From assembly GCA_025934495.1 (NCBI GenBank), contig JAICXY010000010.1:1-59177 (forward strand): a stretch of 59,177 nt of DNA, written 5' to 3'. A program made the position numbers and the translations under genes. The DNA is from Candidatus Nitrosocosmicus sp. Its GTDB lineage: Archaea > Thermoproteota > Nitrososphaeria > Nitrososphaerales > Nitrososphaeraceae. Below, one piece after another: positions 16,905 through 47,226 of the stretch (position 1 is the first letter of the stretch; each line of letters starts with the position of its first letter). Under the pieces are notes generated by a model, which worked only from the letters and a program-made list of their open reading frames with translations, was not told the DNA's origin and searched no databases.

Positions 16905-17960
16905 AACTATTTTTATACTGCTTAACATAAATTCGATAATTCGCTGCTCTTGACAGATGCTTTACGTCTAGATGGAACCATCTTGTCTTATAATATTTAG
17001 CATTGATGATTCTAAATCGATAAACTTGGAATAATATTTTGATACTGACAGATGATATTTTCCCTTCTGTCTTCATCAACATTCTTTAACAATCGCATTA
17101 AATTCAGGTGAGCCTTTTGGAAAATAGATTATTCTCCCCGAATCCTTATTCCTCTAAATGTTCCTTTACCTTATTTGATTGATACTGTCTTGCTCATCTA
17201 TAAACATGACAACCTTTCTTAGGTATTTCTTTACTAATTTTATGTAGTCAAGGAAAGTATCGGGGTTAAACACATAATACTGACGAAATACTGCTTATCT
17301 TCCACAGTTAGTGTACCAAACTCACATGTTCTCTGATACGAGCCTGTGGCTGTAACTAATGGGCCTAATTCCTTTTGAAAGCCATAATTTTCTTCTAATG
17401 GGTATTTCATGGACAAATATTGATTTATCTTCTACTATTGCTATTGTGAATTCTAGTGATTTATGAGAGTATTTTTGTACCTCTTTTGAAAGCTTCTTGC
17501 TCTTCTTTTGAGGATATTAACAAATCTCTTCTGAGGAACTTTACAGGAAGCCCTATTTATGAAGGAGCCTATAAACATGTACTTCGTGGTATCTTTTCCT
17601 GTATCTTTATCAATTATATCCATTATTTGCTTGGTCTGTTATCCAGACTTATCCTCAGATATTTCCTGTCTTTTCTTTAACCTCTTTTTCTTGGCTTAGT
17701 GAGGTAGGGGGTCTACCGCTCCTTGGTTGGTCATTAAATCCCTCTATACCTTTTTATAGAGTCTATCTAGCCACTTATAGACCCACCACCACCTTGACCT
17801 ATATGATTCTCTTTCTCTGCTACTTTGGATGCTTCTTGGTCATCAATTCTAATTCATCTAATAAGCAGGATTCTTCCTTTTACATCAGCATCTGTTTCTT
17901 TTTTATATTCTCTCTTCAATTGCTCCAGAGAAATCTTCTACAACAATTAATATTGTAAAG
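16905..17960 (-). pseudogene. Decayed IS630-family transposase
   Basis: Read on the minus strand, a Tc1/mariner-type (IS630) transposase can be followed with many frameshifts. Pieces, in order, are an N-terminal helix-turn-helix part (KWLDRLYKKV, then ..GRPP-like residues around 17690-17780), a TKQIMDIIDKDTGKDTTKYMF segment around 17580-17640, a FLDYIKLVKKYLRKVVMFIDEQ segment near 17195-17260, KGSPEFNAIV near 17095-17125 and a C-terminal YYKTRWFHLDVKHLSRAANYRIY near 16920-17010. Clear ends were not found. It begins right behind the phosphoesterase stop codon. Confidence 0.7.
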
Positions 17961-41770: not shown

Positions 41771-43180
41771 CTAGATGAATTCATTTATGTTTATATCTTC
41801 CAGGCCGGGAATTTTTGCTATTTCAAATCTCTCTTTATCTTTTAATATGGAAACGGTGGCATCTATTCCTAATTTAGTAGTTAAAAGGTTGATTTGATCG
41901 CTAGATGGATCCAGACTTGACCCTTTTGTATTGGTTATAATTATAATATCTTTATCTGCTTGAACTCGTGTGGAAACTGCGTATTCTACTTCCACGGGAT
42001 CTTCTGGGTTAATGTCATCATCAACAACTATGGCAATTTTTAACGAAGGATGTGCAGAAAATGCGGTAAGAATTGCATTTTTTGGTTCTCCTTCTAGTCT
42101 TTTTTTAATTTGAATTACTGCATTAAGCCAATTACTTCCACCGTCAGTTAAATATACTGACTTTGTTGTAGGGACTGTATTTTTGACATATCCAAATATT
42201 TTTGATTCGATAGGTAATCCCATCAATAATCTATGTTCTGTATATCCAGGTAAGATGTCATAATATATCGGATTGTCTCTATACCATATTTTGTTAATTT
42301 CAAAAATGGGTTGTTTTCTTTTAAAATCATATGTTCTTAGCATTTCTACCATCCATTCTTCAGCAAACTTATCGTGGAGTATTTTACCTTCAATAACTAT
42401 TTCACTATGTTTTGGTATCATTAGTCCTGCAAATTGATTTTTTGCTAATTCCAATTTTCCGTTCAATAGGTAATTCGCTATTGAAATCTCGTCAATACCA
42501 TGTGCAGCTTGATATGCTGCAGCTAAATTTACTGCAGGGTGAACCCCTATTACCACATTTATTTTTAAATCTTCTTTATGTTCTTTTGACTGAACAAAAC
42601 ATTTATGGAGGTGTCTTCCTTCTACCATCCTAATTGCCATTTCATTACTGTTTAATAATAACATGCGATGGGTAGATGAATTTTGATTTCCTGTTTCTTC
42701 ATCTTTTACATAAATTATGGATGAGGTTATGAATGGTCCTGCATCTTTTTCAAAATGAGTTATTATGGGAAGATCGAATAAATTTTTAGAACTATTTTTA
42801 CAAAAAGGTGCATCAGATGATATTTTTATTGGATAATTTTCTTTATTTATTGATGCAAAATTGGAAAAATCAATTTTACCATGTTCACTATTTGTTTTAA
42901 TCCCGTAGAAAAATCTATTTCTTGTCCCTAAAATATTTGAAACAACCTTGAAATTTGAACCTTCTACATCGGTAAATAGAATTGCTTCTTTTTTATCGAG
43001 CTTGGCTATTATCGATGCCAATTGAAATTTTTTATTTACTTTTTTATCTATAATTAACAATTCATTTTTGTTTTCTAAAATTGATAAAAAGTCTCTGAGA
43101 TTATAATCGTTATTATTTTTATCATCATTATGTGTGAAAAATTTTCTTTTATTTGTTGTTTCTTCTTTATTTTTGCTCAT
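41771..43180 (-). CDS. UbiD-family (prenylated-FMN) decarboxylase
   Basis: A 469-residue enzyme expected to use prenylated FMN for reversible decarboxylation of an unsaturated or aromatic acid. Supporting blocks are FDLPIITHFEKDAGPFITSSIIYVKDEETG, NEMAIRMVEGRHLHKC (cofactor/metal region), VVIGVHPAVNLAAAYQAAHGIDE and VVDDDINPEDPVEVEYAVSTRVQADKDIII, the family's conserved acidic/Arg ending. Length is normal. In archaea one UbiD homologue decarboxylates trans-anhydromevalonate phosphate in isoprenoid synthesis, a possible role here. Its start overlaps the upstream 116-residue gene by 14 bases, so the two are probably co-transcribed. Confidence 0.9.
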   Translation of the reverse strand: MSKNKEETTNKRKFFTHNDDKNNNDYNLRDFLSILENKNELLIIDKKVNKKFQLASIIAKLDKKEAILFTDVEGSNFKVVSNILGTRNRFFYGIKTNSEHGKIDFSNFASINKENYPIKISSDAPFCKNSSKNLFDLPIITHFEKDAGPFITSSIIYVKDEETGNQNSSTHRMLLLNSNEMAIRMVEGRHLHKCFVQSKEHKEDLKINVVIGVHPAVNLAAAYQAAHGIDEISIANYLLNGKLELAKNQFAGLMIPKHSEIVIEGKILHDKFAEEWMVEMLRTYDFKRKQPIFEINKIWYRDNPIYYDILPGYTEHRLLMGLPIESKIFGYVKNTVPTTKSVYLTDGGSNWLNAVIQIKKRLEGEPKNAILTAFSAHPSLKIAIVVDDDINPEDPVEVEYAVSTRVQADKDIIIITNTKGSSLDPSSDQINLLTTKLGIDATVSILKDKERFEIAKIPGLEDININEFI

Positions 43181-43517
43181 CTTTCTTTTCCTCTATTGCA
43201 ATTAATATTCTGTCATTAATTGTCTTCATATCTTCATATTGTAATTTATTTTTTGTAAAAAGTGATAAAATACAAATTCCATTTATCATTAATGAAATTC
43301 TTCTTGATAAAGTATCTATGAATAGTTGGTCATTTTTATCATGTATTACTTTAGCTGTGTTTGTTTGGTTGGTTGTTGCTAAAGATACTGAAATAGATCC
43401 TATTCTTAATTTCTCTTCTGAAATTGAAATAAAGTATCCGTTATCAAATTCTAATACATCAAACAGGAATTTTCTTTTTGAAATGCTTGAAATTATTTCA
43501 ATTTGATCCCTCATCAA
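43167..43517 (-). CDS. Small protein, possibly PAC3/PAC4-like proteasome assembly chaperone
   Basis: A 116-residue soluble protein overlapping the start of the UbiD gene by 14 bases, so translationally coupled. The pattern KFLFDVLEFDNGYFISISEE..RIGSISVSLATT.., a central Leu/Ile-rich helix DTLSRRISLMINGICILSL and a final helix NDRILIAIEEKK recalls the small alpha/beta PAC4-type chaperone fold. This is a pattern-based inference only. A frame on the opposite strand (43153-43506) covers the same bases but lacks coding character. It is transcribed away from the palindrome at 43565. Confidence 0.6.
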   Translation of the reverse strand: MMRDQIEIISSISKRKFLFDVLEFDNGYFISISEEKLRIGSISVSLATTNQTNTAKVIHDKNDQLFIDTLSRRISLMINGICILSLFTKNKLQYEDMKTINDRILIAIEEKKDEQK

Positions 43518-43564: not shown

Positions 43565-43600
43565 TTTTTTTAAATCTATATATATATAGATTTAAAAAAA
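43565..43600. promoter_or_regulatory. 36-bp perfect palindrome (operator or promoter)
   Basis: A run of 7 T, AAATCTATATATATATAGATTT in two symmetric halves, and a run of 7 A form a perfect 36-base palindrome centred between 43582 and 43583. It ends 6 bases before the ATG of the 57-residue RHH-like gene and 47 bases from the start of the oppositely transcribed 116-residue gene. The TA-rich core could serve as a TATA element for both directions and as a binding site for a dimeric regulator. Confidence 0.7.
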
Positions 43601-43606
43601 CTTGTT

Positions 43607-43780
43607 ATGAAATCATTAAAAATAGATGAAATTACGTACAAAAGATTAAACTCTTTATTAACCGATTTTATAGATTTGAAGAAACAAGATCTAGATATGA
43701 ATGACCTTTTAAATGAATTGATTGATAATTACCAGGAAACAATTTGGGGTACGATTGGTGCAAATGCTGGAGGTGGTTAA
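43607..43780 (+). CDS. 57-residue RHH-like protein with C-terminal Gly-Gly-Gly
   Basis: The product begins MKSLKIDEITYKRLNSLL and continues LDMNDLLNELIDNYQETIWG. A short strand (KSLKID) followed by two helices fits a ribbon-helix-helix (CopG/Arc-like) DNA-binding dimer. The C-terminus, TIGANAGGG, ends in three glycines. The gene lies 6 bases behind a perfect palindrome, so autoregulation is plausible. It precedes mre11 by 78 bases on the same strand and could be co-transcribed with mre11-rad50. Function otherwise unknown. Confidence 0.65.
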   Translation: MKSLKIDEITYKRLNSLLTDFIDLKKQDLDMNDLLNELIDNYQETIWGTIGANAGGG

Positions 43781-43858
43781 TATTTTATTATTCTACACGA
43801 TTATTTTTCTTTTATTTTAGTAAATACATAAAACACTGTTTTTTTATATTAGTATTGG

Positions 43859-45082
43859 TTGCTTGTCTCTCATATTTCTGATATTCATTTAGGTTATGCT
43901 CAATTTAATATACAAGATCGTGAAGAAGATCTTTATGATGTATTTGAAGAATCTATTGATAAATCTATCCATGAACATGTTGAAGCAATAATCTTTGCTG
44001 GGGATATTTTTCACAATCCTAGACCAAATGGTGCTGCAATTATAAAGCTAGCACGTGAATTAAAAAAATTAAAGGAAAGATCTATTCCGGTTTTTTTTAT
44101 CCTGGGTGAGCATGATATAAGTAGAACTAATGATGTACCACTTCTATTCTTATTTCATAATTTGGGGTTAGCTAAAAGACTTACTCCATACTCGCCTGTT
44201 CAACTAAAAGATCTTTTAATATATGGTTTCAATAAGGAACGGCGATCTAATGTTGATAATGGGTTACTCAAGCCATTTAAAAAATTAGAAAAAATTATAA
44301 AAACTGACGAAAATAAAAATAAAAAGAAAATTCTTGTTCTACATCAGGGTTTAAGCGATTTTAATAAATTTGCTGGAGAAATTTTTGCAAGCGAGTTGCC
44401 TTTAGGATTTAATTATTATGCAATGGGTCATTATCATGATCATATCCAAAAAAGTTTTTCTGAACTTGGAGGTAGTTTGGTTGCTTATCCTGGATCACTT
44501 GATCTAGGGCATAATGAATCTATCTCTGAGGTAGAAAAAGGGTTTTTGCTGGTTGATCTATCACCTAGTCCTGAACACGTCACTACTCATTGGATTAAAA
44601 TGGAAAAAAGAAGACTTCAACTAAGTCATTCGCTAAACTATGATGATTTGGATAAATATGTGCAGTATCTTTTAGATCTTTCAAGTAAATATCAAAAAAA
44701 ACCGATTATTGAATTAAAATTGACCGGATCCGAAATAGATCCTAAAATACTGTCTGGCGAACTATCTCGATTAAATGAACACTTTTTGTATTATACTTGG
44801 AGTATATTTGATAAAGAATCTGTATCTGGATATTCTTATGATTATGCAAATGATTTTAATATAGATAAAGAGCTTTCAAAATTGATTTTAAATACACTTA
44901 AATCCGAAAAATTGACGAGTCTATCGTTAGATCTTATCCAGATGATAAATAATGGGGAGAAACACCTTAATGATACAAATGTTAATAAAGATAGAAGCAA
45001 GAAAATTGCTGATTATCTTTGGAAATTTTATGAAAATTCTAAAAAGAATTATCAGAGCAAGGGCGTTGATAACCTGAATTGA
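43859..45082 (+). CDS. mre11: DNA double-strand break repair nuclease Mre11
   Basis: A 407-residue manganese-dependent nuclease that acts with Rad50 in processing broken DNA ends. The phosphoesterase motifs are all present: SHISDIHLG, IIFAGDIFHNPRP, FFILGEHDI (the His of the GNHD-type motif is kept, Asn replaced by Glu), LVLHQGLSD and MGHYHDHI with AYPGSLDLGH. The C-terminal part (about 270-407) would hold the Rad50-contacting helices. The start is TTG 43859, giving MLVSHISDIHLG; no ATG lies closer. Its TGA stop overlaps the TTG start of rad50 by 4 bases, so the two are one translation unit. Confidence 0.93.
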   Translation: MLVSHISDIHLGYAQFNIQDREEDLYDVFEESIDKSIHEHVEAIIFAGDIFHNPRPNGAAIIKLARELKKLKERSIPVFFILGEHDISRTNDVPLLFLFHNLGLAKRLTPYSPVQLKDLLIYGFNKERRSNVDNGLLKPFKKLEKIIKTDENKNKKKILVLHQGLSDFNKFAGEIFASELPLGFNYYAMGHYHDHIQKSFSELGGSLVAYPGSLDLGHNESISEVEKGFLLVDLSPSPEHVTTHWIKMEKRRLQLSHSLNYDDLDKYVQYLLDLSSKYQKKPIIELKLTGSEIDPKILSGELSRLNEHFLYYTWSIFDKESVSGYSYDYANDFNIDKELSKLILNTLKSEKLTSLSLDLIQMINNGEKHLNDTNVNKDRSKKIADYLWKFYENSKKNYQSKGVDNLN

Positions 45083-47226
45083 TAAAAAAATTGATTTTAA
45101 AAAACTTTTTATCTCATAAGAATACTCAACTTAAATTTAACCCTGGTATAACCGTATTTGTAGGACATAATGGATCAGGAAAATCTAGTATTATAGATTC
45201 AATCACATTTGCATTTTTTAATGAACATACACGAAAATCTAATAGAAATTTGGCGACTAAGGGTATAGATCAAACAATATCTGATGAATCTGGATCATTT
45301 GTTGTCATGGATTTTTCTGTTGGATCTATAGATTATAAAATTCATAGGCAAATAAATAACACAGGTCAACTTGTATCTGTTAAATTAGAACAGCTTACAC
45401 AAAATATTCAAGTGGATAAAAATGAAAAAAATGAATTTATTTATCGACCAGTAATTTCTGGCGAACGAAAACAGCTTGGAGAGTCAGTTATAAGTGAAAT
45501 CGAAAAGATACTAGATATAGATTATAAAAAATTACAGATTGCAAGTATAATTCAACAAGGCGAAATCAATAAAATAATTGATTCTCAACCTAGAGAATTT
45601 AAAGAATTGTTAAATAATATGATGGGTTTAGACAGACTGGATACATCTTTTGCTTATATGCATTCTGCTATAGATGATTTTAGAAAGTTATTAAGAGAAA
45701 AGACTGGGGGTTATGATGATAACCATATAAAAATATTGATTACTAAAGTAGAAGAAAATAAAAATAAAATTTTAAAATCAAGAATGTCTCTTGATAGAAC
45801 CTATGATATTCTTTATAAAAGATCAAATGATATCAAAGAAATAGAAAAAGAGATCGAAGATTTGGAGCCAAAAATATCTAAACAGCAGGAAATGAAAACA
45901 TTGGAAACTACACTATTACATTATTTAAAGGAAAAAACAGTTTCTTTAAAAAGTGATATTGAAAAAACAAAAAAGATACTTTTTGAGGTAAAGAATGCTT
46001 TTTCTATATTGAAAAATAAAGAAGAAGTTTATATAACTTTACAGATGGTTCATTCTGAGAAAGAAGAATTAAATAAAAATATGAATGAAATAGAATGGGA
46101 AATTGGAAAACTAAATGGTTTTACAGAATGTGCAAAAAAAATTCAAATAACTGATGGAAAATGTCCTGTGTGTAATTCAAAAATAACTATGATAAATGAT
46201 ATGTTTGATATATCTCATATTAAAAAAGAATTAGATAAAAAACAAAAAGAAAAGACATCGATTGCATCTGAATTGACCAAGTTAAATACAGAAGAACTCG
46301 ATTTAAAGAAAAAAGAAAAAAGTATCATCTCTTCAGAAAAGATATTGTCATCTTATGATATTCCTTTGAATTACAATATGAATGAGCTTGAGGATAAAAT
46401 ATTATCTTTAAATAAAGATTATCAAATTCTTTTTAAATTAAATTTTAATAATTTTGGAAATGCTGATCTGTTACTTTATAAAGTTGATGATTATTCTACA
46501 AATCTAATTGATACTATAATTAATATGAAAAAAGATCTTGTTGATATCGATATAAACGTACTTAAACAAAAGAAAATCATCAAAAACAAATTAACATCCG
46601 AATATATTGATATCCAAAATCAAAAAGCAATTTTGGAAAATACTATCTCTGATTTAGAAATTGAGATAGTCGAATTTGAAAAATTGGTATCCGAGCTTTA
46701 TTCAGCTTCTAATTTTATTTCTGAACTTGAAAAAATTAGATCAATGGTTTTCAATAGGGATGGGGTAGTAAGTTCTAGTTTAAGGACTTGGGCATTAAAT
46801 TTGATATCTAATAAATCGTCTGATTATATTAATACTTTTAATGTTGGTATATCTAAAATATCTTTGATAGAAAAACCCCGTGAAATAAAGGTTTTATGTT
46901 ATGGTAGACGAGGAGAAATTGATATAATTTCTTTAAGCGGAGGTGAAAAAGTAGCTGTATCTTTGGCATTAAGAATGGGCATAGCTTATTTAATGGGCTC
47001 TTCAAAAATTGATTTTATTGTTTTAGATGAACCCACTTCTAATTTGGATGAAGAGCGTAGGCGTTCCTTTGTGAAGATAATTTCGAATGTGTTTAACAAA
47101 GGTGTTGGACCTTTATCTCAAATGATAATCATTACTCATGATGAGGAAATATTTGAAAATTCTGAAATAGAACAAATATATAAGTTTTCTATGAGTGATA
47201 AGGGATCTATAGTATCTTCTGTTTAA
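45079..47226 (+). CDS. rad50: DNA double-strand break repair ATPase Rad50
   Basis: A 715-residue SMC-like ATPase, Mre11's partner. Walker A is VGHNGSGKSSIIDSI near residues 29-43 and the Q-loop region follows (ASIIQQGEINKI). Long coiled-coil arms flank a zinc hook, GKCPVCNSKI near residue 360. The ABC signature LSGGEKVAVSLALRMG, Walker B FIVLDEPTSNLDE and switch His IIITHDEEIF lie in the last 100 residues. The arms are short compared with the ~850-900 residues of many archaeal Rad50 proteins, but every functional motif is present. Start TTG 45079 overlaps mre11. Confidence 0.94.
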   Translation: MIKKLILKNFLSHKNTQLKFNPGITVFVGHNGSGKSSIIDSITFAFFNEHTRKSNRNLATKGIDQTISDESGSFVVMDFSVGSIDYKIHRQINNTGQLVSVKLEQLTQNIQVDKNEKNEFIYRPVISGERKQLGESVISEIEKILDIDYKKLQIASIIQQGEINKIIDSQPREFKELLNNMMGLDRLDTSFAYMHSAIDDFRKLLREKTGGYDDNHIKILITKVEENKNKILKSRMSLDRTYDILYKRSNDIKEIEKEIEDLEPKISKQQEMKTLETTLLHYLKEKTVSLKSDIEKTKKILFEVKNAFSILKNKEEVYITLQMVHSEKEELNKNMNEIEWEIGKLNGFTECAKKIQITDGKCPVCNSKITMINDMFDISHIKKELDKKQKEKTSIASELTKLNTEELDLKKKEKSIISSEKILSSYDIPLNYNMNELEDKILSLNKDYQILFKLNFNNFGNADLLLYKVDDYSTNLIDTIINMKKDLVDIDINVLKQKKIIKNKLTSEYIDIQNQKAILENTISDLEIEIVEFEKLVSELYSASNFISELEKIRSMVFNRDGVVSSSLRTWALNLISNKSSDYINTFNVGISKISLIEKPREIKVLCYGRRGEIDIISLSGGEKVAVSLALRMGIAYLMGSSKIDFIVLDEPTSNLDEERRRSFVKIISNVFNKGVGPLSQMIIITHDEEIFENSEIEQIYKFSMSDKGSIVSSV

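Follow-up and report, generated by a model that had tools for sequence, protein, structure and literature searches.

Organization of the Locus

We analyzed a 59,177-nucleotide stretch of a Candidatus Nitrosocosmicus genome (the window), in which a gene of 57 codons (43607..43780, + strand, ATG at 43607) encodes a small, acidic, diverged RHH-like protein with a conserved C-terminal Gly-Gly. Head-to-head with this small gene, an arrangement found throughout the genus, is a divergent 116-aa gene (43167..43517, − strand) whose product weakly resembles proteasome assembly chaperone 4 (PF16093; E 0.0017, below the Pfam cut-off). A gene for a UbiD-family decarboxylase (41771..43180, − strand) is located downstream of this PAC4-like gene. 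On the other side is the gene for an mre11-like nuclease (43859..45082, + strand; TTG start, with ATG in two relatives), which begins 78 bp after the small gene, and then that for a rad50-like ATPase (45079..47226, + strand).

The interval between the divergent genes contains an exact palindrome of 36 bp (18 + 18) at 43565–43600, with TTTTTTTAAATCTATATA as its first half and TATATAGATTTAAAAAAA as its second. It ends 6 bases before the ATG of the small gene, so that the palindrome is present as the earlier note had described it. The ten bases at its center form a TA repeat and are symmetric in their own right, and folding of the region as single-stranded DNA gave a 16-bp hairpin (z −5.3).

The length of the palindrome was compared with several backgrounds. 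The runner-up spacerless palindrome of the window was 18 bp. Order-1 Markov sequence gave arms of at least 14 bases about 1–4 times per 5 Mb, and no arm of at least 18 in 5 Mb even at the very AT-rich local composition, which bears out the earlier opinion that a chance symmetry of AT-rich DNA was the less likely explanation. In 1.33 Mb sampled from the same genome (3.56 Mb in 200 contigs), only three spacerless palindromes reached at least 32 bp: the one in the window and two others, of 36 and 32 bp. The palindrome at 43565–43600 therefore exceeds chance based on composition, yet is not unique in kind. The second perfect 36-bp palindrome (L084, 5094–5129, contig C17) was located in an intergenic stretch of approximately 600 bp and the perfect 32-bp palindrome at 17244–17275 of L179 (contig C86); both were unrelated in sequence to that of the window. 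Given these two others of 32–36 bp, some of the long palindromes of this genome may be under selection.

Several other identities were considered for the palindrome. An intrinsic terminator was ruled out, as there is no G+C stem and the position is wrong, and membership of a repeat family or regulon was ruled out because the site is single in the genome. A scan for sigma-70 promoters, which is unsuited to archaea, found fewer sites than in the sequence's own shuffles.

Comparison of the Palindrome with Relatives

Searches with a pattern of the 28-bp core, allowing up to 3 mismatches, identified a single occurrence in the source genome and none in the 14 other genomes of the genus. In addition, none of 29 orthologous upstream regions had a comparable inverted repeat; the best ungapped one was far shorter, and these regions included those of three relatives whose small protein is 88–89% identical to that of the window. 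Symmetry is thus not conserved at the orthologous promoters. The earlier note had proposed that the palindrome and the small protein formed an autoregulated switch acting in both directions, mre11-rad50 included, and had itself named lack of conservation of the palindrome in relatives as the result that would speak against this proposal; absence from 14 of 14 congeners is that result.

The two arms of the palindrome compared differently with the three closest relatives (G001, G007, and G010, those with the 88–89% identical small protein). The left half alone (AAATCTATAT; TTTAAATCTATATAT; TTTAAATCTATAT) was common to all three, with TTTAAATCTATATAT at 43569..43583 (+ strand) in the window. The right arm (43584..43600, + strand) differed, being in the relatives an unsymmetric T-run followed by AACAAAAA, and its sequence in the window is derived in this genome. 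The differences from G001, G007, and G010 were few, clustered, and such that they complete the symmetry, although the path of substitution is not traceable base by base because even these closest relatives are only ~88% identical at the small protein. In most of the genus, (A)ATCTATAT or CTATAT was found ~35–45 nt upstream of the start codon of the small gene. Position and composition suggest that the left half is the core promoter, of the archaeal TATA type, from which the small gene is read.

Relationship to mre11-rad50

The small gene was found upstream of mre11 in the whole genus, with a spacing of 58–113 bp across congeners. This adjacency is limited to the one genus, and no copy of the small gene could be detected upstream of mre11-rad50 in other genera. 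The gap between the two genes in the window contains an AT-rich, putatively promoter-like block (43813..43834, + strand; TTTTAGTAAATACATAAAACAC), which has the form AATTAATGAATAAAATATGG and lies ~25–40 nt before the mre11 start in most congeners. These observations suggest that mre11 has its own promoter. The restriction of the adjacency to one genus and this promoter-like block together make a palindrome-based switch for mre11-rad50 unlikely, and with the palindrome itself unconserved, the two-way switch was left unsupported.

At an E value threshold of 1e-10, several genera of the family (in G019, G020, G022 and others) had no match to the Mre11 of the window, and this version of mre11-rad50 may be patchy within the family.

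Conservation and Affinities of the Small Protein

The small ORF, whose conservation was also to be checked according to the earlier note, proved to be a genuine gene. Each of the 15 genomes of the genus carries it in single copy, most genera of the family likewise have one copy per genome, and 31 orthologues were identified in named GTDB genomes. Outside the genus, searches with the proteins of this genome did not detect PAC4-like, ubiD or mre11-rad50 neighbors near it. In several of those genera the small gene was instead near tRNA-Pro(TGG) and a divergent gene for a methionine-aminopeptidase-like M24 metallopeptidase (L139–L144, L146, L148, L149). A test for a VapB-type antitoxin found no toxin gene among the neighbors, in the genus or elsewhere, and a toxin-antitoxin pair was rejected for this reason.

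Of the 30 orthologues searched, 29 matched the DUF7557 profile, at E values down to 3.6e-7; the protein of the window itself scored 19.8 bits, below the 25-bit Pfam cut-off. When compared by hhalign with same-class DUF7557-like sequences, the small protein reached a probability of 94.5%, its helix 1 being 7 residues longer. Judged by their sequence pattern, these DUF7557-like sequences look like VapB-type RHH proteins. In its sequence pattern the small protein would follow the strand-helix-helix order of DUF7557 (PF24434) and VAPB_antitox (PF02697), and it shares with them T-x-x-x-L in helix 1 and D-D-[LI]-[LI]-N-x-L-[IL] in helix 2. It differs from them in the longer helix 1, in a W-G-rich tail that ends in Gly-Gly, and in having no adjacent toxin gene.

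The AlphaFold2 model of the monomer had helices at residues 8–25 and 31–54 and an N-terminal coil (pLDDT 72–75); the strand of an RHH protein would arise between two subunits and so lies outside a monomer model. Foldseek searches with monomer models returned no significant match (best E 0.97), and RHH proteins (MatP, ParD, and the ParB of pCXC100) were prominent among the weak ones. All three of these bind DNA, and their partners or sites are known. A sequence profile search of the PDB produced nothing credible, the best match being a coiled-coil stretch (E 0.01) that we judged to be chance, and a search of NCBIfam returned nothing useful. Literature searches identified no papers on DUF7557 and nothing about the small protein among reports on RHH proteins in Nitrososphaera. 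Together, the profile similarities and the model indicate that the small protein is plausibly RHH-derived, being a diverged member of the DUF7557/VapB type.

The positions at which such a protein would be expected to contact DNA had a different character. Strand positions 3 and 5 were among the most variable columns of the alignment (entropies of 2.3 and 3.1 bits), so that conserved polar or basic residues were not found there, and the net charge was −2 to −6 in all orthologues. Binding of DNA by the small protein is doubtful in view of these variable positions and of the acidity of every orthologue. The RHH-like assignment made in the earlier note gained from the similarity to DUF7557, but the palindrome-binding role attached to it was not supported at the strand.

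The invariant parts of the small protein are helix 2 and the C-terminal Gly-Gly. In the first alignment T10, R13, N36, L38, I39, and D40 were invariant, with D40 replaced by Asn in a few further orthologues. All orthologues examined have Gly-Gly immediately ahead of the stop codon (43772–43780 in the window), despite changes of length just before it. The C-terminus is often Gly-Gly-Gly, and a W-G-x-x-G-A tail lies ahead of it in most orthologues.

Ubiquitin-like modifiers, SAMPs, and Pup are small proteins in which a conserved Gly-Gly forms the C-terminus or lies close to it. The small protein is like them in this ending, which all orthologues examined have, but it is predicted to have helices rather than a beta-grasp fold (the AlphaFold2 model has two helices and no strand) and no sequence similarity to them was found. 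Its tail is at most reminiscent of those of SAMPs or Pup, and literature on archaeal diglycine tails contained nothing about it.

Discussion

The most likely explanation for these findings is an ordinary archaeal core promoter that carries a lineage-specific palindrome and lies beside an uncharacterised small protein. The palindrome itself is probably the product of a recent mutation at this place, and not a control switch that has been conserved. The ancestral promoter element would correspond to its left half, and the origin that we prefer, which is unproven, is that an AT-rich near-palindrome underwent template-switch correction, leaving a right half that mirrors the left. Correction of quasipalindromes by template switching is a described class of mutation (PMC7202029, PMC3820800), and it resembles the present case in that clustered changes perfect an imperfect inverted repeat. 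The origin proposed here is drawn from diverged relatives and not from a mutation experiment. On this explanation the palindrome is neither a conserved operator nor a specific controller of mre11-rad50. The conserved function of the small protein would reside in helix 2 and in the Gly-Gly tail at its C-terminus, for which contact with another protein seems more likely than binding of the palindrome. We are reasonably confident of this explanation as a whole, that is, of a lineage-specific palindrome over a TATA-type promoter with a recently altered right arm, no switch for mre11-rad50, and a role for the small protein that does not involve DNA. Counting against it are the two other long palindromes of this genome, which leave room for selection, and the place of the palindrome's center, at which a bound regulator could obstruct the transcription machinery.

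One such regulator would be the small protein itself, whose RHH dimers, paired on the palindrome, would block TBP/TFB at the TATA element and so repress both its own gene and the PAC4-like and ubiD genes. The RHH-like relation of the protein, a palindrome that overlies a promoter between divergent genes, and a length far above chance are all consistent with an autoregulatory operator of this kind. We nevertheless consider it unlikely, as the 29 orthologous upstream regions have no comparable inverted repeat, even where the small protein is 88–89% identical, and the predicted contact positions are variable in a protein that is acidic. Slightly less probable again is that some other regulator particular to this lineage, such as a winged-helix or Lrp-type protein, binds the palindrome; the perfect symmetry over the promoter and the other long palindromes of this genome would fit this possibility. 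Against this, the core occurs only once in this genome even at up to 3 mismatches, which leaves no visible regulon, and the other two long palindromes are unrelated in sequence. A DNA-repair switch governing expression of mre11-rad50 is very improbable: the small gene is close upstream of mre11 genus-wide, but no further than the genus, the block before mre11 is conserved, and the palindrome is not. Among the genomes compared, the palindrome is private to this one and the reading of it as a conserved operator fails, while RHH ancestry of the protein is plausible.

With respect to the small protein, there is a small chance that it is RHH-derived, has lost DNA binding, and acts in the Nitrososphaeraceae through its Gly-Gly end, as a peptide ligand, a signal for processing or degradation, or a conjugated tag.

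The comparison of 15 congeneric genomes demonstrates that a striking 36-bp palindrome can belong to one genome alone, and it removed a tempting regulatory story. The Gly-Gly end, which was missed in the earlier note, is the most interesting feature of the locus, more so than the palindrome. What is left is a testable target, a small protein that these ammonia-oxidising archaea carry in single copy across the family and that invariably ends in Gly-Gly.
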